Positions 470-33,103 of a DNA stretch of 34,566 nucleotides are shown here, one piece after another. The stretch lies in IMG/VR virus record IMGVR_UViG_3300036864_000063, positions 1-34,566 of that record; one strand, 5' to 3'. The notes beneath the pieces were generated by a model, which searched no databases, had not been told where the DNA came from, and worked only from the letters and a program-made list of their open reading frames with translations. Source of the stretch: a virus. A program made the position numbers and the translations under genes. The number at the start of each line of letters is the position of its first letter. Within the stretch, counting starts at the first letter, position 1.

Positions 470-3187
470 TCAGATGGTCTCGAGGTAGCGGAACCGGTTC
501 ACGTCCAGCGTGCGGCAGCTGTTCCGCCAGAAGGCGAACACGCCGCGCTGACCCGTCGGGATCCCGAAGCCGGTGCCCGCGGTCGCCTGCTGGAACAGGT
601 TCGGGATGACTTCGACTTCCATGCCGACCCGGTCGACGACCATGAACCCCTTCGAGAAGTCGCCGACGACCATGATCTTGTTGCCGGCGCCGGCCAGGGT
701 GACCGTCATCGTCGAGAGCTCATAGCTCCCCATCCCGGCCAACCGTGGCGGGACCCCCTCCTGCAGCTGGACCCACAGCCCCGCGCCGCCGGCCGTGTCG
801 ATCGCACGGATCCGGTTCTGCTGGGTGAGCGAGGCCAGGAACGTCGCCACGCCCGAGCGAGCTCGAGGCGGCAGCGCGTTCTGCAGGTTGTACAGGTCGG
901 CGAGCGCGAACACGCCGGTCGTGCCCGTCTGGACACGCTGGGTAGTCGTGAGCGCCGTCAGGAGCCCCTGCGGGTTCGGGTTCGTGCCGTTCCCGGTCAG
1001 GAACGACGTCGCCTCCTCGATGTCCTTCGCCTCGGCGAACAGGCCCGCCATCTCGGCCTGCAGGGCTTCCCAGTCCTGCCCGACCTCTCGCGAGAACGGG
1101 ACGAACGAGTCGACCCGCTGCACCTGCACCGCCGGCTGCGTCATCGCCGGCGTTGCGTCGGCCGAGACCGCGCCCTCGAGGTTCCTCGTCGCGACCACCG
1201 CGCCGGACGTGGCGCCTCGCCACTCGTTGGTGCCAACGATCGTCTCGAGCCGCGAGATCGCCCGGAACGGGTTGATCACGTAGTTCGAGGTTCGGATAAT
1301 CGTCGGGTCGAGCGTCCACACGACCGGCACGCCGGTTGTGCCCAGCGTGAACGCGCGCTGCAGGGCCGCCTCCTCGAGCTGTGAATAGCCGACCGTCTGC
1401 CCGCGCATCAGCTTCCCGAAGGCGCTCTGGTACGCGGGGGATCCGGTGCCGAGGATGTGCTCGGCGAGCATCACGTCCACGCGCCGTCCCGCGTCGGACT
1501 GCACCCGGCGTCCACCGGGACCGATCCCTCGGACCAGCTTCGAGACGTGGGCGCGGACCTTCGCGTCGTCGATCTTGATCGCGCCGATCTCCGAGTCCCC
1601 GGCGAGCTCCTGAGAGCGCTCCGAGTAGGAGATCTCCGTCGGGATCGACGCGATCTCGACGGCACGCTGCGCGTCCTCGATCAGGAGGCGCTCGGCGTGC
1701 TCGGGCGAGCTCGCGTCCTTCCACCGCGCGACGGGGTCGAAGATGTCGCGCTGGATCGACTTCGTGGTCTGGAACTGGTGCGGCCGGCCCACGGTCTCGG
1801 ACCGACGCTCGTCGGTCGCGCTGCGGGCGACGGTCGCCTGCAGGTCCGCGATCTCCTGCTCACGCCTCTCGATGTCGGCGAGCTCGTCCTTCAGCCCGTC
1901 CCACTCCGAGCGGATCACTTCCTCCATGCCTCCGGCCGGATACTGTTTCGCGATCTCCGCCTGTCGGGCGAGGACCTCGGTCTTCCGGCTGGCGACGTCC
2001 TCCGGTCGGGAGAACTTCGTCTCCGTGTCCACTTCACTAGCCTCCTCGGGTGCTGGGGGCGGAGGTTGCTCCTCGTGAGGCTGCTCCTCGGTGCCCGTGT
2101 CATCGGGTGTGACGGAGGGCGCGGCAGCTGGGGCAACACTTTTAGCCGCCGCGCCCTCCTCCTCGGTCCTGTCGTCGGCGTCTGGGGCCGCGGCGGGAGC
2201 CGCTTCGGTCTCGGTCTCCTCGGACCGAGAGGTCGTGACCTCGATCGGGCGCGCGGCCTTCGCGAACTCCGCGAGCCGCTGCAGGCCCTCACCGTGGGTC
2301 ATCTTCGCGAAGACGTACTCATCGGTCATCGAGCGAGCGACCACTGCGGAAGTCTTCGTACCGACCGGGAACGGCGTCGGGCCGAAGTCCTTCAGCCGCG
2401 TGATCGAGCGCACGACGTGCTCGTCGAGACCCTCGGGGTTGTGCTCGGCGCGTTCGGCGAACCGCGAGACCGTGATCTCAGCGTCGCCGCGGAAGCTCGA
2501 CCCGTACAGGCCGGCCTCGAGCCCTGGCAGGAGCGCCCGGTTGTAGTCGGTGTCCAGGAGCGTGACCTCGTAGTAGGCGCTGCGCGCGGTCTCGCCCACG
2601 GCCTTGACCGGGCCGAGCGGCTTCCGCGCGATCGAGGGGTCCTGCCCGTGGTCATACAGCGGCTGATACCGCCCGCGATCGCGCTCGAACGCGGGGGCGA
2701 ACGAGCCGCGCGCGATCTGCTCGACGAACGGTCTGCCGCCGTTCTCGAATGTCGAGCGGATCGAGGCCCAGTCACCGAAGGTTGCCATGTCGCCGCGCAA
2801 GGTTCCGAGCGAGCCGTCGTGCGCGGCGACGAGCTCGGGAGCCGCGAGCGCGCGAACGATGTCGGTGACGGCTTCGAGCTCCTCCGAGCGCTGCGCGTCG
2901 GGGTTGATCTCGCGCATGTGCGCCTCGAGGTGGGACCGCGCGTCGTCGGTGTTCGTGAGGCCTTCGGTCTGCGGCAACCGCGACAACGCGTTGCGGACAC
3001 CGGCGGCGTTCGGACCCTTGCCGAGGTAGTGATGCGGGAGCGCGTGCGAGCTCCGGAGCGCCGGGTCGCCAGCCTTGCGCCCCGCGCATATCGAGTTGTA
3101 GTCCGAGGCGCTCTCACACGCCGCCATCGCGCGGCCGGCGTCCCAGGTCGACGTATCGACCGCCCGCCCAAGCTCGGTCGTGCTCAC
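470..3187 (-). CDS. Prohead protease-major capsid protein fusion (HK97 fold)
   Basis: A single 905-residue protein. Residues ~10-110 form a separate Cys/His-containing domain (DYNSICAGRKAGDPALR). Residues ~120-295 match the HK97-family prohead protease: YDHGQDPSIARKPLG carries the putative catalytic His180, and GLYGSSF the Ser at 230/231. Residues ~320-395 are an acidic Ala/Pro linker and ~395-480 a charged coiled coil, as in a scaffold/delta domain. From about 490 it has the features of an HK97-like major capsid protein, including GNGTNPNPQGLL and a C-terminal segment typical of the family. Start is GTG at 3187 with a weak ribosome site. It lies just after portal, the usual order. Protease cleavage probably frees the mature capsid subunit; that is inference from HK97 biology. 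Confidence 0.92.
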   Translation of the reverse strand: MSTTELGRAVDTSTWDAGRAMAACESASDYNSICAGRKAGDPALRSSHALPHHYLGKGPNAAGVRNALSRLPQTEGLTNTDDARSHLEAHMREINPDAQRSEELEAVTDIVRALAAPELVAAHDGSLGTLRGDMATFGDWASIRSTFENGGRPFVEQIARGSFAPAFERDRGRYQPLYDHGQDPSIARKPLGPVKAVGETARSAYYEVTLLDTDYNRALLPGLEAGLYGSSFRGDAEITVSRFAERAEHNPEGLDEHVVRSITRLKDFGPTPFPVGTKTSAVVARSMTDEYVFAKMTHGEGLQRLAEFAKAARPIEVTTSRSEETETEAAPAAAPDADDRTEEEGAAAKSVAPAAAPSVTPDDTGTEEQPHEEQPPPPAPEEASEVDTETKFSRPEDVASRKTEVLARQAEIAKQYPAGGMEEVIRSEWDGLKDELADIERREQEIADLQATVARSATDERRSETVGRPHQFQTTKSIQRDIFDPVARWKDASSPEHAERLLIEDAQRAVEIASIPTEISYSERSQELAGDSEIGAIKIDDAKVRAHVSKLVRGIGPGGRRVQSDAGRRVDVMLAEHILGTGSPAYQSAFGKLMRGQTVGYSQLEEAALQRAFTLGTTGVPVVWTLDPTIIRTSNYVINPFRAISRLETIVGTNEWRGATSGAVVATRNLEGAVSADATPAMTQPAVQVQRVDSFVPFSREVGQDWEALQAEMAGLFAEAKDIEEATSFLTGNGTNPNPQGLLTALTTTQRVQTGTTGVFALADLYNLQNALPPRARSGVATFLASLTQQNRIRAIDTAGGAGLWVQLQEGVPPRLAGMGSYELSTMTVTLAGAGNKIMVVGDFSKGFMVVDRVGMEVEVIPNLFQQATAGTGFGIPTGQRGVFAFWRNSCRTLDVNRFRYLETI

Positions 3188-16984: not shown

Positions 16985-17275
16985 ATGGCCCAGTTAGGAA
17001 CCACCGAGGCCGGCCTGTCGACGATCGTGGGGGCGAACGTCCACGGGCTCCGCGTGCTGACGGTCCCCAAGCTCAGCCAGGACGACCTGGCGCGCCGAGC
17101 CGGGATCCACGTCGAGACCGTGCGGATGATCGAGGCCGCGCGCGACCCATCGAAGCGTCAGCTCGACGTGCGTCTGTCGACGATCAGGGCGCTCGCAGAT
17201 GCCCTCGGCGTGCAGCCGGCGGACCTTCTCGCCTACGATTCACCTACGCGGGTGTGGCTCAATCCCGCGGCGTAA
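16985..17275 (+). CDS. XRE-type phage repressor
   Basis: 96 residues from ATG 16985, behind GAGGGAGGGA. HTH core: LRVLTVPKLSQDDLARRAGIHVETVRMIEAARDPSKR, then LSTIRALADALGVQPADLLAY. There is no C-terminal peptidase or dimer domain; only ~12 residues follow, ending LNPAA, a C-terminus like an ssrA-type degradation signal. It overlaps the integrase gene by 22 bases in the same direction and is divergent from the early operon, so it is the best candidate for the immunity repressor. Confidence 0.82.
   Translation: MAQLGTTEAGLSTIVGANVHGLRVLTVPKLSQDDLARRAGIHVETVRMIEAARDPSKRQLDVRLSTIRALADALGVQPADLLAYDSPTRVWLNPAA
17245..17274 (+). promoter_or_regulatory. Inverted repeat at the rep-int overlap (int start in the loop)
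   Basis: TACGCGGG at 17245-17252 faces CCCGCGGCGTA at 17264-17274, with three unpaired bases, around an 11-base centre that contains the integrase GTG (17254). The stem would bury the integrase start unless ribosomes translating the repressor open it. The same arrangement, two inverted arms around a short centre, would also suit integrase core binding, so this is my first candidate for attP. Confidence 0.5.
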
Positions 17276-18207
17276 GACCGAAGGTCGTACCCCTCCGAGC
17301 CGACGCGAACAGTAGCCCAGCGGGACTACCGCGCGGCGCACCGGCGACGCATCCTGGGCAGGTGCTCGGAGAGGCATCCCCGGATGACTTCCCGGCCGTG
17401 TTCGCAGCGTTCGCGGCCTACATGGTTGCGGCCGGCTTCGCCTCCACGACCCAGCACAAGTACCGGTACGAGCTGCTCTGCTGGGTCTGCGACTGTTGCT
17501 GGGTCCGTGGACTCGATCCGATCACCGCGACCGAGGTCGACATCAGCCGCTACATCGTCAGCCTTCCCGCCCATGGGAAGAAACGCGGCGACGCCGCGCG
17601 TGCGCTGAAGGCGTTCGGCAGCTGGCTCGCAGGCCGCTACCGCGCCGACGATCCAGCCAGGGAGATCCGGATCCCGCGCGACAGGGCCACGCCGGCGCCG
17701 GAGCTCACCGACGAGGCGGTCCAGCAGCTGCTCGCCGCAGCGTTCCGACAGGAACCGCGCCGAGGGTGGGCGATGATGCTCGCCCTGGCGACCGGCGCGC
17801 GTGTCGGTTCGCTCGTGGCGATCCGTCGAGAGGATGTCCATCTCACCGACGCCAGCGGCCCTTGGATCTGGTTCGACAAGGCCAAAGGGTCACGACCCTA
17901 CGCGGTACCTCTGAACGCCAGAGGTCGGGCAGCTTCAGCGCACCTGCTGAGTCTCGGTCACGACCCGATCATCGGTGTCGGCGCCGCGCGGTTCCGTCAA
18001 TGGGTCCACGCGGCCGAGGAATCAGCAGGGCTCGAGCGAGTCTGGCCGCATCTGCTCCGGCACACGTTCGCCTCGAAGGTTGCGCGTGCCGGAGACGTGG
18101 AAGCCTGGCGTCGGCTCATGGGACATTCGGACCTGACCCAATGGCCGCGCTACGTTCACGCGGCTGACGAGCGGCTCCGCGCGGCGATCGAGGCCGCGGA
18201 CCGGTAG
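17254..18207 (+). CDS. int: Tyrosine-type integrase
   Basis: 317 residues from GTG 17254. N-terminal SAM-like core-binding domain at ~45-125 (FAAYMVAAGFASTTQHKYRYELLCW). Catalytic domain: Arg in ATGARVGSLVAIR, Lys in DKAKGSRPYAVPL, HLLRHTFAS with the H-x-x-R box, LMGHSDL with the second His, and YVHA with the likely nucleophile Tyr. Integrates and, with a directionality factor, excises the prophage. The ~40-residue N-terminus before the core-binding domain is low in signal, so the true start could be later (GTG 17362). Confidence 0.92.
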   Translation: MAQSRGVRPKVVPLRADANSSPAGLPRGAPATHPGQVLGEASPDDFPAVFAAFAAYMVAAGFASTTQHKYRYELLCWVCDCCWVRGLDPITATEVDISRYIVSLPAHGKKRGDAARALKAFGSWLAGRYRADDPAREIRIPRDRATPAPELTDEAVQQLLAAAFRQEPRRGWAMMLALATGARVGSLVAIRREDVHLTDASGPWIWFDKAKGSRPYAVPLNARGRAASAHLLSLGHDPIIGVGAARFRQWVHAAEESAGLERVWPHLLRHTFASKVARAGDVEAWRRLMGHSDLTQWPRYVHAADERLRAAIEAADR

Positions 18208-18299
18208 AGACGTGGCCCCTTCATACTGTTGCACCGTCGGCCGATACGTTGCGACGAAGGATCAGCGCGTGCGCGACGCGGTCGACAGGGCCTGAGGGG
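18208..18299. other. Convergent gap between integrase and holin genes
   Basis: 92 bases between two genes that end towards each other. Contains a weak hairpin (GGCCTGA / TCAGCC, 18289-18305) without a T-run. No tRNA-like T-arm, no long repeat. Could hold a terminator or attP arms; nothing decisive is visible. Confidence 0.4.
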
Positions 18300-18530: not shown

Positions 18531-19067
18531 CTAGCAGTCTGGGTCCGGGAGGATGGTCCCGGTGAACCCCGAGTGGTCGTCCGTGACGTCGTCGTCGCAT
18601 CGGTGCCACACGTCCTCGTCCCCGCCGATGATCTCGTCGGCTCCGAACCCGTCGTAGAGGTCGTCGCGGACCCCGTCACCGCCTGCGCGAAGCGTGTCCG
18701 CGCCGGCGTAGCCCCGAAGCGTGTCCGCGCCAGAACCGCCCCAGAGGTCGTCGTTGCCGCCGAACCCGGCGAGGTTGTCGTCGCCCGCGCCACCGTTCAG
18801 TTGATCGGGACCAGCCTCGCCGACGAGGAGGTCCGCGCCATCGTTGCCGCAGAGCTCGTCACCGCCATCGCCGGCGAAGTACTGATCGTCCCCGTCCCCG
18901 AGCGCGGCGACATCGGCGTCGTCGGTCCCCGACAGGAAGTCGTCGCCCTCGGTCGAGCGGCTGTCGTTCACGTCAGCCCCGAAGCATGTGGGCGGCGGCT
19001 GAGCCGAGACACGCGCCGGGACGATTAGGACGCTCGCAACGACCACCGCCAAGACCAGCCGCCTCAT
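18531..19067 (-). CDS. Secreted RTX-like calcium-binding repeat protein (178 aa)
   Basis: From ATG 19067 (ATGA with its paralogue). Signal peptide MRRLVLAVVVASVLIVPARVSAQ. Then about ten Gly/Asp nonapeptide-like units of the RTX type (GDDFLSG, GGDELCGND, GGAGDDNLAG, GGSGADTLRG, GYAGADTLRA), which would fold as a calcium-loaded beta roll outside the cell. Two Cys near the ends (PPTCFGAD, PDPDC). No enzyme domain. Lies between the holin gene and a tandem paralogue in the lysis region. Role unknown: lysogenic surface protein, wall-binding factor or lysis helper. Confidence 0.82.
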   Translation of the reverse strand: MRRLVLAVVVASVLIVPARVSAQPPPTCFGADVNDSRSTEGDDFLSGTDDADVAALGDGDDQYFAGDGGDELCGNDGADLLVGEAGPDQLNGGAGDDNLAGFGGNDDLWGGSGADTLRGYAGADTLRAGGDGVRDDLYDGFGADEIIGGDEDVWHRCDDDVTDDHSGFTGTILPDPDC

Positions 19068-19453: not shown

Positions 19454-19737
19454 GGGCAGTTCAGCCCCTCGACGTCGGGCGGAACGATGTCTTCGACCGG
19501 CAGCCCGAGCTTGAGGCCGATCTTCCGAACGGCCACGGTGATGTCATGCTGGGCGCAGAGCTGGGCGTCGTTCTGCTGAGACACGCCGGCGATCTGACGC
19601 TGGTTGATGTTGTAGAGCAGCGCCGCCATCACCAAGACCCCGATAACGACGAACGTCATCACCGCGACGAACAGCACGTCCACCCAGCGTCGTGAGCGGA
19701 CGTTGTCGGTCGAACGCCGGAGCTGCGAATCCTTCAC
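19450..19737 (-). CDS. Lysis-region membrane protein with periplasmic-type tail
   Basis: 95 residues. Start chosen at GTG 19737 because it overlaps the upstream TGA (GTGA); an upstream start would overlap the neighbour heavily. One membrane helix at ~19-42 (VDVLFVAVMTFVVIGVLVMAALL) with a basic N-terminus, then an external part with Cys61 and Cys94. Could be a second holin-like or spanin-like component. Not assigned to a family. Confidence 0.7.
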   Translation of the reverse strand: MKDSQLRRSTDNVRSRRWVDVLFVAVMTFVVIGVLVMAALLYNINQRQIAGVSQQNDAQLCAQHDITVAVRKIGLKLGLPVEDIVPPDVEGLNCP

Positions 19738-20024
19738 GGATGCGCCTTGTCGATCAGGAACTGCACGAACCACAACCCCAGCGCCACCGCCGCCCCAAAC
19801 AGGGCCGTGAGCATCATGCGCCTGGTCCACTGGCTTTCCTCCCGCCGGGCTTCAACCATGCCGGTGATCGCGGTGTTGATCGCGTCGATGTCCTTCTTGA
19901 TCTCGCGGATCTCCACCTGAGTGACCGACGCGCCGGAACGGTCCATCTGCTCGACCCGCTGCCGGAGGTCACGGAGGTCGGTGATAAGCCGTTCGACGTC
20001 CCTGATGACCCCTGGATCACCCAC
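19734..20024 (-). CDS. Coiled-coil protein with C-terminal membrane anchor
   Basis: 96 residues from GTG 20024. Residues ~5-62 are a coiled coil (DVERLITDLRDLRQRVEQM, EIREIKKDIDAINTAITGM) and ~70-91 a membrane helix (MMLTALFGAAVALGLWFVQFLI). This plan resembles XhlA/haemolysin-type holin accessories. It follows the endolysin, so it probably helps lysis at the membrane. Confidence 0.75.
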   Translation of the reverse strand: MGDPGVIRDVERLITDLRDLRQRVEQMDRSGASVTQVEIREIKKDIDAINTAITGMVEARREESQWTRRMMLTALFGAAVALGLWFVQFLIDKAHP

Positions 20025-20033
20025 ATCGCCCCG

Positions 20034-20804
20034 TTACTTCGCGCATGGGGGGATGCCGGTGTGGTTCAAACAGGTGTTGTGGACGTGCCATAGGTGCGAG
20101 CCGTTGCCGGAGTAGGGTTCGACCTTCCACGCCGAAGCCTTCGCCTGACGCTCGATCTTGCCGTCGACGGTCCCGATGACCTGGACCACCTTGAGCTGAC
20201 CGGCTGCGGCCATCCGCCGGCCCCAGTCGAACACCGAGGCCGTGGGTCCGTGACTCACGTCGACCGCGTCACCCCAGGCGTGCGCCGAGTAGCCGACCTT
20301 CGGGTCGGTTGAGCCACCGAAGCGCTTGCAGTTGTAGATACCGCCGAAGGCGCACGTCGGCCACGCCCGGTGGTACAGCGCCCAGACCTCGTTCGCCTTG
20401 TTCGTCGCCGAGGGATAGGCAACGACCTGGATGACGCTTCCCAGGACCCCGACCAGGATCAGCCCGTCTTTGCCCCGAAGCTGCATCCGGTCTTGATCTC
20501 GCTTCAGCCCCCGGCACCACGTGTCCATCGCCTCGATCGCGCTCGCACGCTTTCCAACGTCTTTCCAGTTCGTCCATCCCTCGGCTTTGGTCTGACGCAT
20601 CTCGAACGGCCCCAGCGTCGCGATGATGTCCTCGGTCACCGCGAGGGCGCTCGTCTTGGTCCGCAGCAGGTCCGGACCTTTCGTCGTCCAGTCCTGCTTC
20701 GGGGTCTTGACCTGGAACCGGTTCACCGCCCAAGGGTCGACGTCGCGTCTAGGCGTGATGCCGCTTGCGGTGACCGGGATGACGATGGTGCTTGCGCGCC
20801 ACAT
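20034..20804 (-). CDS. Endolysin, M15-type peptidase
   Basis: 256 residues from ATG 20804 (a shorter GTG start at 20726 is possible; the ATG start overlaps the upstream tail gene by 56 bases). The peptidase M15 (VanY/endolysin) zinc site is visible: H175-x2-G-x-A-x-D182 (SAHAWGDAVDVSHG) and the C-terminal SHLWHVHN with His242. Two Cys (WPTCAFGG, YNCKRF) flank the site. Cuts peptide cross-links of peptidoglycan. The N-terminal ~110 residues lack a recognised wall-binding repeat. Followed by the membrane lysis genes. Confidence 0.9.
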   Translation of the reverse strand: MWRASTIVIPVTASGITPRRDVDPWAVNRFQVKTPKQDWTTKGPDLLRTKTSALAVTEDIIATLGPFEMRQTKAEGWTNWKDVGKRASAIEAMDTWCRGLKRDQDRMQLRGKDGLILVGVLGSVIQVVAYPSATNKANEVWALYHRAWPTCAFGGIYNCKRFGGSTDPKVGYSAHAWGDAVDVSHGPTASVFDWGRRMAAAGQLKVVQVIGTVDGKIERQAKASAWKVEPYSGNGSHLWHVHNTCLNHTGIPPCAK

Positions 20805-28729: not shown

Positions 28730-29121
28730 ATCCCCGAGAACCCCGACGCGGCACAGGACTCACGCATCGCGCCCTGACAGCCACCGTGCATCCACCGCTG
28801 CGCCGCCTCGCCTAGATAGGGCTTCCGCGGCGATCCGGGGTGCTCGACGACGCCGGAGACGAACTTGCCGCCGCCGAGGTAGAGGTAGCCACGTGAGCCC
28901 TCGATCTCGTGGGGACGGGCGCCCTCCTCGAAGATCGGGCCGAGCTCGCCGGCCGCGCGGAGCTCCGCCGAGGTCGGCCCCGTCTGGTGAACGGTCGCGG
29001 TCGCCTTCGGCGAGCCCGAGGTCGCAGACGCGTCGGCAGCGACCTCCACGAGCGAGGCCTCGAACCCCTTCGCGATCGCGGCATCGAGCGGTGCCGGGTT
29101 CCAGTAGACAACCCCCATCAC
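28726..29121 (-). CDS. Neck protein (HK97 gp10-like)
   Basis: 131 residues; ATG 29118 shares one base with the upstream TGA, and GTG 29121 is a second option. IAKGFEASLVEVAADAS, ATATVHQTGPTSAELRAAG, IFEEGARPHEIEG and HPGSPRKPYLGEAAQRW fit the HK97 gp10-type neck family (...ARPHxI......HPGxxxxPFL..A). Ends MHGGCQGAMRESCAASGFSGI. Confidence 0.75.
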   Translation of the reverse strand: MMGVVYWNPAPLDAAIAKGFEASLVEVAADASATSGSPKATATVHQTGPTSAELRAAGELGPIFEEGARPHEIEGSRGYLYLGGGKFVSGVVEHPGSPRKPYLGEAAQRWMHGGCQGAMRESCAASGFSGI

Positions 29122-29819
29122 GCGAGCCCCGCGAAGTTGTCTCGATAGAGCTCGGCGACGATCTCGTCGACCTCAGGCAGACCGCTCGAGGCGACCTTGT
29201 CGTTGTAGGGGTTGCGCCCATCCGGCACGAACACGATCGACGTGTCGCCAGCGCTCGCAGACTTCGCCCGTCGCAGGTCCGCGTTCAGCGTCGTGAAGTG
29301 GTTCCATACGAGCAGCGCGACGGCACGGAGCGCGTCGGGATGCGGCACGGTCCAACCGGTCGCGCCGATCACCTGCACCGTCTGCGGGCCGTAGGGCCAC
29401 TCATACTGCGATCCCGTGACCCCGGCGATCCCCAGGCCCAGCCCGAGGATCTCGAGCGAGTCGAAGTCCCCGACCGCCCGGTCACCGCCGGACGAGAGCG
29501 AGCTGTTCAGGCGGTAGACGCTCGAGGAGGCCTGCAGCGTGAGGTTCCCGGCATAGTCGCGCGTGTTCACCGACGCGATCGAGGTCGTCCGCTTCGTCAG
29601 CGGCACCGACGAGGAGCAGACCCAGACGTCGAGCTCCATCGTGTCGGCCGCGATCTGCTCGAACTGATCATTCGCCAGGTCATCGACCCGGCGCGTCATC
29701 CGCGCGATCGAAGCGGTCAGGTCGGCGTCGTCGGCCTGCGCGAGCGCGAGTGCCAGCTGCCGGCAGGGCTCGGCCGTGGACTCTGGGCGGAAGTCGGCGG
29801 GAGTCAGCAGCGGCGCCAT
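29118..29819 (-). CDS. Head-tail adaptor protein
   Basis: 233 residues. MAPLLTPADFRPE, helical NDQFEQIAADTMELDVWV, beta-rich middle, and PHPDALRAVALLVWNHFTTLNADLRRA are consistent with gp6-type head-tail adaptors (HK97 connector), which form the ring under the portal. First of the connector genes. Confidence 0.7.
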   Translation of the reverse strand: MAPLLTPADFRPESTAEPCRQLALALAQADDADLTASIARMTRRVDDLANDQFEQIAADTMELDVWVCSSSVPLTKRTTSIASVNTRDYAGNLTLQASSSVYRLNSSLSSGGDRAVGDFDSLEILGLGLGIAGVTGSQYEWPYGPQTVQVIGATGWTVPHPDALRAVALLVWNHFTTLNADLRRAKSASAGDTSIVFVPDGRNPYNDKVASSGLPEVDEIVAELYRDNFAGLA

Positions 29820-29820
29820 C

Positions 29821-30156
29821 TCAGAAGACCTCGAGCGTGCCGCGAGCCTTGATCTTCGGGAGCTCGGGCGAGTGCGTGACCTCGACCCACTTGTCGTATA
29901 GCCCGGCGACCAAGACCACGGTCCCGCTGGGACCGACCAGGCACCGCGCGTAGTACCGCGAGGGTGTCGTCGTCGCGTCGACCTCCCAGCTGGCAGTTTT
30001 CCAATCGCCCGAGACCGGCGCGACGTCGTGGGCCGGGAACGCCATCCGGACCACGTCGGTCGACAGGTTCGGGACCGATCCCGAGTCGCGGACGATGACC
30101 TCGGCCCGCACGTATCCGAGTGCCAGGGCCGAGATCCTTTCGTTGCTCACTCCCAT
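29821..30156 (-). CDS. Hypothetical virion protein (111 aa)
   Basis: From ATG 30156 (or GTG 30150, which makes a GTGA with the repeat protein's stop). Beta-rich: ALALGYVRAEVIVRDSGSVP, VVRMAFPAHDVAPVSGDWKT, YYARCLVGPSGTVVLVAGLYDKWVEV. Resembles small decoration or tail-terminator-like proteins, but no family is clear. Precedes the adaptor gene. Confidence 0.68.
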   Translation of the reverse strand: MGVSNERISALALGYVRAEVIVRDSGSVPNLSTDVVRMAFPAHDVAPVSGDWKTASWEVDATTTPSRYYARCLVGPSGTVVLVAGLYDKWVEVTHSPELPKIKARGTLEVF

Positions 30157-31010
30157 CGGTCCTTTTGGTCGGCCTTCCAGCGGTCGGCGCCGACCGCGTC
30201 CCAGCGCTCCTGCGAGTCTGCGTCCCACCGCAAGGCGCCCACGGCCTCCCAGCGGGTCCGCCCGATCGCCTCGAGGAAGTCCGGACCCGTCCCCGTGATG
30301 ATCCCGGCCTGGTTCACGACGGGCGCGAACGGCGCGCCGGCCTGCGAGATCAGCCCGAGCGCGATCGACAGATTGACCTTCGGCGAGAACAGCACGCCCG
30401 AGCGGTCGATCAGGCCCGCCGCGATCGCGCGGTTCACCGCCGGCGAGAACAGCGTCCCGGAGCGGTCGATCAGGCCGGGCGAGACCGTCTGCGGGCCGCC
30501 CGAGATGTTTACGTTCGGTGCGAACGTGACGCCGCTCTGGTCGATCAGACCGAGGAAGATCTTCAGGTTCAGCTGCGGCGAGAAGACCGTCGGCGTCTGC
30601 GAGATCAGGCCGGGTGAGACCGAGAGGTTCACCTTCGGCGTGAACACGACACCGCTCTGGTCGATCAGGCCGGGCTTGACGTTCAGCCCGATCGTCGGCG
30701 AGAACAGCACCCCGCTCTGGTCGATCAGCCCAGGCTTGATCGCGAGATTGACCTTCGGCGCGAACAGCGTCCCCGACTGATCGATCAGCCCAGGCTTGAC
30801 GTTCTGGTTCACCTGGGGCGCGAACACGATGCCGCTCTGGTCGATCAGCCCAGGCGAGACCGTCGACGCCCCGCCGGCAGCGAGCGCGTCGGTGAAGATC
30901 TGCACCCCTCGAGCCGCGGGGCGCGCGCCTGCCGTCGAGCGGTTATAGAAGACGTGCGCGGTGCCTGGGATCGTGACGCGGTACCGCCCGACCAGTTGGC
31001 CGGTGCTCAT
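30147..31010 (-). CDS. Repeat protein of the head region (20-residue and RW-octad repeats)
   Basis: 287 residues from ATG 31010. N-terminal 45 residues are a small beta domain (GQLVGRYRVTIPGTAHVFYN). Residues 53-238 are nine units of about 20 residues, each PGLIDQSGxxFxPxVNxxxx; five are exactly 20. Residues 250-287 then switch to an 8-residue period with RW at 253/254, 261/262, 269/270, 277/278 and 285/286 (RWEAVGAL RWDADSQE). No matching enzyme motif. The first array suggests an elongated beta-solenoid or fibre; a virion surface role is inferred from place in the operon. Confidence 0.75.
   Translation of the reverse strand: MSTGQLVGRYRVTIPGTAHVFYNRSTAGARPAARGVQIFTDALAAGGASTVSPGLIDQSGIVFAPQVNQNVKPGLIDQSGTLFAPKVNLAIKPGLIDQSGVLFSPTIGLNVKPGLIDQSGVVFTPKVNLSVSPGLISQTPTVFSPQLNLKIFLGLIDQSGVTFAPNVNISGGPQTVSPGLIDRSGTLFSPAVNRAIAAGLIDRSGVLFSPKVNLSIALGLISQAGAPFAPVVNQAGIITGTGPDFLEAIGRTRWEAVGALRWDADSQERWDAVGADRWKADQKDRWE
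30297..30854 (-). repeat. Nine ~60-bp coding repeats (GLIDQSG units)
   Basis: Copies start with codons for (P/L/A)GLI(D/S)(Q/R)SG and are 60 bases apart except for the sixth, which is longer. Sequence between units is diverged in the last third, so this is an old or selected array, not a recent duplication. Confidence 0.9.
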
Positions 31011-31013
31011 GGG

Positions 31014-31466
31014 TTACTCGTCCCAGACGAAGTACAGCTTGTTCGCCGCCATCGTGGCCGCGCCCCAGTTCCACACCACGAGCCACGTCGAAGCCAACAG
31101 CTCGATCGGGCGGTCGTAGAACGACCAGACGATGCCCGCGCCGATGTTCGCCGGCAGCGTCACCCCCCGGCCTTGGTTCGCGGCGGTCGGAACGGTGGGC
31201 GCGGTACTCCACGCCGTATCGAGGGCGGATGCCGACGTGAGCAGGGCGGACCCGAACCCGTCGTAGTCCAAGGATGACGTCTGCGAGGTCGTGGCGACCG
31301 GCGTGTTCGCGGGCTTCCCGAGGTAGATCGAGGACGCGACCGCCGAGGTGTTGAACAGCCCGAACTCCACGATCTGGATCGCGTGCGTGGAATCGGTGTG
31401 GATGGTCGCACACGCGGCGGCAGATGCTGCGGTGACCCCCGTGACTCCCAGCTCGTAGCGCGGCAT
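31014..31466 (-). CDS. Virion decoration-like protein (150 aa)
   Basis: From ATG 31466. Ala/Ser/Thr-rich beta protein: RYELGVTGVTAASAAACATIHTDSTHAIQIVEFGLF (split for length), GVTLPANIGAGIVWSFYDRPIELL and a Trp-rich end (STWLVVWNWGAATM). Typical of small decoration proteins; unrecognised beyond that. The stop falls just before the start of the repeat protein. Confidence 0.7.
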   Translation of the reverse strand: MPRYELGVTGVTAASAAACATIHTDSTHAIQIVEFGLFNTSAVASSIYLGKPANTPVATTSQTSSLDYDGFGSALLTSASALDTAWSTAPTVPTAANQGRGVTLPANIGAGIVWSFYDRPIELLASTWLVVWNWGAATMAANKLYFVWDE

Positions 31467-31467
31467 C

Positions 31468-32661
31468 TCAGATCCCCCAGCTCGTGTTGAACGCCGCGAT
31501 CGCGGCGGCCAGCGCCGGCGCCTGCCAGGCCTGCGAGCCCGTGTACGTGAAGCTCGGCGCGTACACCTCGATCCAGTTGATCCCCGAGTCGAAGCAGGTC
31601 GAGAACAGGTCCGCCCACACGTAGTCAGTCCTGCTCGTCCCGTCGTACATCTGCTCGCCGTCATAGATGTCCTGCGAGCCGCCGGGGTTGATCACCTGAC
31701 CTACGTCCTGGTACTGGCCCAGACCCGTCAGCAGCGTCTGGATCTGCGCCGAGCCAGGACCCCACAGCTCGAGCATCCGGTTCCGGTTGGCGTCGGTGAT
31801 CTGCTGCCCGACGCCGCCCGAGAACAACCCCGACGACGTGAACGACACTGCGAGGTCATCTCCGGAGACCTGCCGGCCGACACTCAGGAGCGAAAGGTTC
31901 CCCTCGACGCAGTTGGGAACCGCCCATCCTGGGACCGCCTGGATGTCGGCGTCGGCGTTGTACTCCGCCCAGAGGCGCCCGTACCAGGGCAGGTGCAGCA
32001 GGTGGACCTCGTTCGCGCGGCACCACGACGAGAGCTCGCCCACGAGCCGCGCGTAGGCATCCTCGAACGCCGGGTTCCCCGCGATCCCTTCGCGCGAGAA
32101 CGGCAGCGGCACTCGGGCGCCCGGATCCTGGGTCGCCAGCGTGTACAGATAGTCGGGTCCCATCGCGTCGTAGAGCGCGGCCGGCAGGTAGCGGCCAGCC
32201 ATGAACCGGACGGAGAGCTCGACCCCTGCGGCGTCGGCCCTGGTCCGCGCCGCGTCGAGCGGCCCCGGCAACAGCGCGCCGTGCTCGTCGCCGATCGAAC
32301 TCCACGGGAACCGGGCCGCGAACCCACGCACACCGGGCGTCTGCAGCGCGATCGTGATATCGCCGGCGTCGATCGAGCTCGACGTCGTGACCTGCTTCAG
32401 CGCCCAGACCCCGCGGCAGTACGCCGCGAGGTCGAAGGTCTTCGGCAGCTGCGCCTGGCACTCCGCGAGCTGGGCCTTCAGGTCGGCGATCTGCGCGTTC
32501 GCCTGGTCGAGCTCGGCTTCGACCTGCGTGAGCTGCGTCTGACAACTCACGTGCGAGGCCTCGAGCTGGTCGGCCTGCGCGGCGTCGCCACGGATCTGAT
32601 CTCCGAGAAGACCCACGCCTAACCCCACGGTCCCCGCCAGGAGCTCTCGTCGCGAGAGCAC
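31468..32661 (-). CDS. Tat-signal glycoside hydrolase-like protein
   Basis: 397 residues. MLSRRELLAGTVGLGVGLLG is a twin-arginine-type signal (SRRELL then a Gly/Leu helix). Residues ~31-72 are a coiled coil (LTQVEAELDQANAQIADLKA). From ~75 it reads as a TIM barrel of the glycoside hydrolase 4/7 type: Glu233 in RLWAEYNAD at the expected strand 4 place and Glu365 in GINWIEVYAPSF at the strand 7 place. Aromatic FPWSSIGDEHG and PWYGRL lie near. Substrate unknown. The gene is in the head/decoration block, so it may be a virion or exported glycan-degrading protein. Confidence 0.7.
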   Translation of the reverse strand: MLSRRELLAGTVGLGVGLLGDQIRGDAAQADQLEASHVSCQTQLTQVEAELDQANAQIADLKAQLAECQAQLPKTFDLAAYCRGVWALKQVTTSSSIDAGDITIALQTPGVRGFAARFPWSSIGDEHGALLPGPLDAARTRADAAGVELSVRFMAGRYLPAALYDAMGPDYLYTLATQDPGARVPLPFSREGIAGNPAFEDAYARLVGELSSWCRANEVHLLHLPWYGRLWAEYNADADIQAVPGWAVPNCVEGNLSLLSVGRQVSGDDLAVSFTSSGLFSGGVGQQITDANRNRMLELWGPGSAQIQTLLTGLGQYQDVGQVINPGGSQDIYDGEQMYDGTSRTDYVWADLFSTCFDSGINWIEVYAPSFTYTGSQAWQAPALAAAIAAFNTSWGI

Positions 32662-32662
32662 A

Positions 32663-33103
32663 TCAGTACTTCCAGATCCCGGAGGCGCTCCACACGACGG
32701 TCACGTCGCCGCCGTTAGGTGTGAGCGGCAGACCCGTCGCGGTGTCCCAGGCAGCCAGGAACGGCGAGTCGCCGGCGACGGTCACGAACTTGAACACGAC
32801 GAGCCACTCGACCGAGGTCGACCCCGTGAGGACCGAGCCAGCGGTGAACACGGTGTCGTTCGCATCGAACACGCCTACCGCGACGACGCCGGCCGTCCCG
32901 CCGGCGAGCGCCTGAGCGTTCGCGAACGTCGGGTTGATCCCGGTGTGGGAGCTCTCGAACACGTCGGTCACGACCGGGGTGTCGGTACCCTGATCCATAA
33001 AGTACGCCTTCAGCGTGTCGGTGTCCGCGTCGACGCGGCCCGAGTAGTCCGACGTCTTTCCGACGGTCGAGTTGCGGTAGGCGTCCGCGAGGAAGTTAGC
33101 CAC
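32663..33103 (-). CDS. Virion protein (146 aa), decoration-like
   Basis: MANFLADAYRNSTVGKTSDYS, then beta segments (LKAYFMDQGTDTPVV, VEWLVVFKFVTVAGDS, GGDVTVVWSASGIWKY). N-terminal FLADAYRN resembles some phage capsid- or tail-attached proteins. Stop is two bases before the glycosidase start. Function inferred from place only. Confidence 0.7.
   Translation of the reverse strand: MANFLADAYRNSTVGKTSDYSGRVDADTDTLKAYFMDQGTDTPVVTDVFESSHTGINPTFANAQALAGGTAGVVAVGVFDANDTVFTAGSVLTGSTSVEWLVVFKFVTVAGDSPFLAAWDTATGLPLTPNGGDVTVVWSASGIWKY

Follow-up and report, generated by a model that had tools for sequence, protein, structure and literature searches.

The minus-strand gene described here, which lies in the virion operon of a phage contig, encodes a 397-aa protein that looks, by its sequence, built for shipping from the infected cell and for cutting a sugar polymer. 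The explanation that we prefer, and to which we give roughly even chances, is an accessory glycosidase-like enzyme, exported by the Tat system late in infection and active on glycan outside the membrane, where it would help lysis or release. The protein would be made together with the virion proteins, fold and self-associate via its coiled coil, and leave through the host Tat system, its signal being removed by a cut after AAQA. The mature enzyme would then hydrolyse a glycan in the host envelope or in the extracellular matrix, and this would ease lysis, release or spread of progeny. Tat export, its late timing and the enzyme activity are what we infer. The domain that would carry the activity is, as far as sequence comparison can tell, a previously undescribed family, of which two members were found.

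The gene and its surroundings

The window, that is, the whole stretch of DNA that was analysed, is a viral contig of 34.6 kb with 68% GC. A preliminary description of this DNA had given an interval for the gene that coincides exactly with an open frame (32661..31468, 397 aa). No strand had been named; the minus strand carries the gene and the plus strand does not. The GC3 of the gene is the same as that of the portal, terminase and capsid genes of this phage. Its start lies 1 base past the stop codon of the gene before it (TGATGTG), and a ribosome-binding-like stretch, GGAAG, is found shortly 5' of the GTG codon.

The first 116 bases of the window are repeated exactly at its end, after which the two copies are shifted by one 21-bp repeat unit. 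Given this overlap, circular permutation or terminal redundancy of the genome is probable, and gene order continues over the contig ends. The minus strand there seems to encode a Lys/Ala-rich repeat stretch directly after the capsid gene. On that strand the order is small terminase, large terminase, portal, a 905-aa protease/capsid-like protein, the contig join, several small genes, PHROG 644, the 397-aa gene, a 150-aa protein, a LIDQSG-repeat protein, a head-tail adaptor-like gene (PHROG 442) and the tape measure. The gene had been placed within a virion operon, and it does lie in one, with the capsid gene on one side and the head-tail adaptor on the other. Relatives of the 150-aa downstream neighbour were sought and none was found. 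The LIDQSG protein is built from repeated units some 20 residues long (GLIDQSGVLFSPKVN), and its copy in the related phage locus L002 is longer.

The portal is 44-46% identical to portals of Gordonia phages, which makes an actinobacterium, and one of soil type, the probable host. An integrase is present at 17254-18207, and the phage is best read as a temperate actinobacteriophage.

Table 1. Coordinates of the gene, its parts and its neighbours in the window
Feature	Position	Strand	Basis or remark
Exported glycosidase-like protein gene (putative)	31468..32661	(-)	397 aa, GTG start; open frame, GC3 0.90, coupled start
Tat-type signal peptide (predicted), about residues 1-31, VLSRRELLAGTVGLGVGLLGDQIRGDAAQA followed by D	32569..32661	(-)	sequence; shuffle test
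Coiled coil, residues 30-72, about six heptads	32446..32574	(-)	heptad test, AlphaFold helix, coiled-coil profiles
Barrel domain (likely), residues 75-397	31471..32439	(-)	conserved in L223; BLASTP, model, TIM-barrel matches
WYGxxWAE motif ending in E233, putative acid/base	31963..31986	(-)	pattern match, conserved in L223
IEVYAPSF motif with E365	31549..31572	(-)	aligns with AEVYCGPSF in L223; strand 8 by count
Upstream neighbour, 146 aa, PHROG 644 (no known function)	32663..33103	(-)	85-89% identical in L002/L003
Downstream neighbour, about 150 aa (MPRYELG...)	31014..31475, approximate	(-)	start inferred
LIDQSG-repeat protein	30147..31010	(-)	homologous to L002:6454-7827
Head-tail adaptor-like (PHROG 442)	29118..29819	(-)	downstream border of slot
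905-aa protease/major capsid-like protein	470..3187	(-)	upstream border of slot, across contig join
M15-peptidase-like gene	20034-20804	(-)	lysis region
XhlA-like gene	19734-20024		lysis region
Overlapping contig ends	1-154 and 34434-34566		116 exact bases common, then 21-bp repeat number differs

Tat-like signal and coiled coil at the N-terminus

Residues 1-31 hold what is looked for in the sequence of a Tat substrate: a twin arginine, a mildly hydrophobic stretch and an A-x-A site. SRRELL stands at residues 3-8; behind it come a hydrophobic stretch rich in Gly, a c-region with an Arg, and the AAQA cleavage site. A Tat-like pattern (S/T-RR-x-[FLVIM]-[LIVMA], an uncharged hydrophobic 13-mer and an A-x-A-type site) occurred by chance in 7 of 48,560 shuffled N-termini, so that the SRRELL motif and hydrophobic helix noticed earlier as a putative Tat signal go beyond chance. 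Among 2,428 coding-like ORFs from related phage loci and the window, eight carry the pattern. One is the 397-aa protein; the remaining seven are read from the strand that does not carry the structural genes.

The coiled coil that had been proposed is also present. Hydrophobic a/d positions are kept over residues 30-72, a heptad pattern reached by 92 of 5,000 shuffles, and AlphaFold run on the single sequence makes residues 4-70 one helix (block pLDDT 67-89). Cys40 and Cys68 both fall at heptad d positions and could form interchain disulfides if the protein is exported. Matches to coiled-coil profiles were rejected as a signal of kinship, being compositional. In the phage loci compared, residues 1-76 match no other protein, and no virion-attachment domain common to other virion proteins was found in them.

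A relative in an unrelated phage

No relative of the protein was found in Pfam, PHROG, NCBIfam, PDB sequences or isolate phages, nor did scans with the whole protein turn one up in viral and genome collections or among isolate phages and plasmids. Weak matches from the genome collections were rejected as chance (the top one, L096, is by eye a peptidase S15-like protein), as were phosphoribosylaminoimidazole-synthetase-like matches of about 40 residues with E 0.003-9. A degenerate DNA pattern for WYGxxWAE gave 29 matches and one true relative, L223:5420-6565 (BLASTP 33% identity over 330 columns, E 2e-36). The two proteins have only the barrel in common (33-37% identical). Residues invariant in both include R117, R152, R157, H223, W226, Y227, W231, E233, D239, Q337 and E365. 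The L223 protein has a different N-terminus with neither signal nor coil, so export is no constant feature of the family. A two-row profile of the pair found nothing in samples of 396 and 395 actinobacterial genomes, which is weak evidence because the samples had no positive control.

The relative stands directly after an Amidase_2 endolysin and a 61-aa holin-like membrane protein. The order in L223 is tape measure, two minor tail genes, a structural gene, the endolysin, the 61-aa protein, the relative and an integrase. Structural proteins of the window tested against this phage gave no match except a weak stretch of the tape measure. Since the structural genes of the two phages do not match, the barrel domain moves between phages, and its presence in unrelated phages and in different modules is easier to reconcile with an accessory gene than with an essential part of the virion. 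The gene is best read as a mobile accessory gene, probably moved horizontally.

A variable slot behind the capsid gene

Related phages differ in what follows the capsid gene. In L002, for example, PHROG 644 (85% identical) is directly followed by the LIDQSG protein; the 397-aa gene is absent and nothing in the slot looks exported. In L003, a lipoprotein-type and a Sec-type protein lie between a capsid-side gene and PHROG 644. The slot was surveyed in 47 related loci that were anchored on the portal gene and extend 4.5 kb or more downstream of it. Proteins with convincing signal peptides were found in four of these (L020, L043, L046 and L049), and all are confined to 4.1-6.9 kb past the portal, directly after the capsid gene. 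The first begins 4.1-4.9 kb past the portal in each of the four loci, and L049 has a second at 6.1 kb. The proteins of L043 and L046 have similar starts and are therefore probably one family. The same filter flagged weaker signal-like N-termini in L020, L033 and L045, which were discounted by eye; terminases and tape-measure proteins flagged by the exported-protein pattern were set aside.

Because export signals of three kinds recur there, though in a minority of loci, the slot can be seen as a variable cargo site. By signal the cargo would be Tat, Sec or lipoprotein, and by kind glycosidase-like, phosphoesterase, SGNH-like or DUF1996. A wider proposal, which we regard as tentative and on balance rather unlikely, is that a lineage of soil actinophages keeps this slot for exported proteins, its own pre-lysis secretome, and that the 397-aa gene represents the Tat-exported type and is the first of a new family of glycosidases. 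Such a secretome would remodel the cell surface or the surrounding matrix late in infection, before lysis.

Several of the slot proteins have recognizable parts. L003:2046-2699 (217 aa) is of lipoprotein type, SGNH esterase-like by eye, and lies directly after a homologue of window gene 34397-34041. L020:6986-8785 (599 aa), in a virion operon, is exported-looking, with a part that is barrel-like by eye, a Thr-rich linker and a metallophosphoesterase domain; it stands two genes past a gene that by eye is glycosyltransferase-like. L049:15419-17398 and 17426-18208 are tandem signal-bearing DUF1996 proteins in a virion operon, and a further DUF1996 protein with a signal occurs on a phage contig at L055:2181-3122.

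The preliminary description had left two options for the 397-aa protein, export before lysis or anchoring to the particle. Coiled coils are common stalks, and under the second option the N-terminal helix and coiled coil would fix the barrel to head or tail as a virion-borne depolymerase that clears surface glycan at adsorption. The gene does stand among virion genes, adjoining PHROG 644 and near a repeat protein, and the coil is there. Against this, every element of the Tat layout, AAQA among them, is present in the N-terminus, which resembles no other protein in the phage loci compared, and the L223 relative lacks both coil and helix. Export is favoured and anchoring disfavoured, since exported proteins recur in the slot and the relative has its place in a lysis cassette; the depolymerase is possible but doubtful.

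The probable barrel domain

Predicted strands alternate with helices over residues 75-397 in a barrel-like manner. In the AlphaFold model of the single full-length sequence the barrel is not visible (pLDDT 41). The model of the barrel alone, made from two sequences (window and L223), has pTM 0.58 and pLDDT 48.7, with strands 1, 6 and 7 unresolved. With this model, the best Foldseek matches in the PDB are GH1 and GH5 enzymes (E 0.008-0.013); all have E > 0.007, and nothing is significant at 0.001. VIA-align gave GH164 at Z 9.0, GH5 at Z 8.7 and GH42 at Z 8.4. Of the 50 best VIA-align rows, about three in four belong to glycosidases and the remainder to other TIM-barrel enzymes; the highest row, 3g8r (Z 9.1), is not a glycosidase. 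In a BFVD structure search the second-ranked match was a phage GH5 protein. The TIM barrel suggested earlier thus has moderate support from the pTM and from the predominance of TIM-barrel glycosidases, with matches that are weak (Foldseek E at least 0.0076), and the two-sequence model leaves it standing. From the models, residues 75-397 likely form a barrel, and a glycosidase barrel is plausible.

The description had given the positions of Glu 233 and Glu 365 correctly, and both are kept in L223, the sole relative found, so that this check of conservation did not refute the reading. The WYGxxWAE pattern, for which 0 matches are expected by chance, ends in E233. In clan GH-A the acid/base Glu lies on strand 4 and the nucleophile on strand 7. 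By the sequence-based count E233 is at the end of strand 4, past the strand at 220-223 (the model lacks strand 1), and so would fit the acid/base of the clan. The same count puts E365 on strand 8, and L223 has Val in place of E336, the acid near strand 7. Of the two Glu called well placed, the term would suit E233; for E365 as a GH-A nucleophile it is not supported. We infer catalysis by E233 (and E365); the protein is at most a candidate member of the clan, because E365 counts to strand 8. The protein resembles the clan GH-A glycosidases (GH5, GH42, GH164, GH35) in its predicted (beta/alpha)8-like domain, the Glu that by count follows strand 4 and its best structural matches. It differs from them in matching no GH family profile (Pfam, NCBIfam), in its second conserved Glu and in the low confidence of its model.

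A barrel that binds glycan without cleaving it, lectin-like or a degenerate glycosidase, would account for the lack of a conserved canonical strand-7 acid, and the barrel held in common does not by itself show a function. We consider this improbable, given that the two Glu are invariant together with W226, Y227, H223, R117 and R152 at such low identity. Least probable of all is a membrane-anchored or secreted conversion factor, made by the prophage to alter the host surface (e.g., for superinfection exclusion): uncut Tat-like anchors exist and the phage carries an integrase, but the gene is embedded with a coupled start in the late structural operon, outside the lysogenic region, and has the AAQA site.

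Relation to known systems

Phage carbohydrate enzymes are usually seen as virion spikes or as endolysins released by holin. If the preferred reading, a late Tat-exported glycosidase-like enzyme, is true, an enzyme of the virion operon with its own export signal acts on the host exterior before lysis, which is a third route. That unrelated proteins of exported appearance keep turning up in the slot points to a habit of some soil actinophages, and the family is small, with an activity that could be measured. No description of a Tat-exported phage glycosidase was found in the open-access literature.

Like bacterial Tat-exported glycosidases, the protein has a twin-arginine signal with an AxA site ahead of a glycosidase-like domain. 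Unlike them, it is encoded in a phage virion operon, has a coiled coil between signal and barrel, and has no relative in the two samples of about 395 actinobacterial genomes. An accessory carbohydrate-active gene in a soil-type phage has a parallel in V-Csn, an auxiliary GH75 chitosanase of a soil virus with demonstrated activity (PMC9485262). GH75 is a different family, its activity is shown, and the terms 'signal peptide' and 'secret-' are absent from the text of that paper.

The position of the L223 relative, directly after endolysin and holin-like genes, is like that of genes in the lysin A / lysin B cassettes of actinophages. Unlike lysin A and lysin B, the 397-aa protein belongs to no peptidoglycan hydrolase or esterase family (profile searches matched no peptidoglycan hydrolase domain), and the window copy carries an export signal of its own and stands at a distance from the lysis genes. 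Since the window has this separate lysis region, the gene is not needed as an endolysin. The product of 20034-20804 is by eye a probable M15-type peptidase endolysin (HAWGDAVDVSHG ... HLWHVHN), without a Pfam match. A second exported-looking protein, with a Sec-type signal and RTX calcium-binding repeats, is encoded in the lysis/integrase region at 18531-19067 (-).
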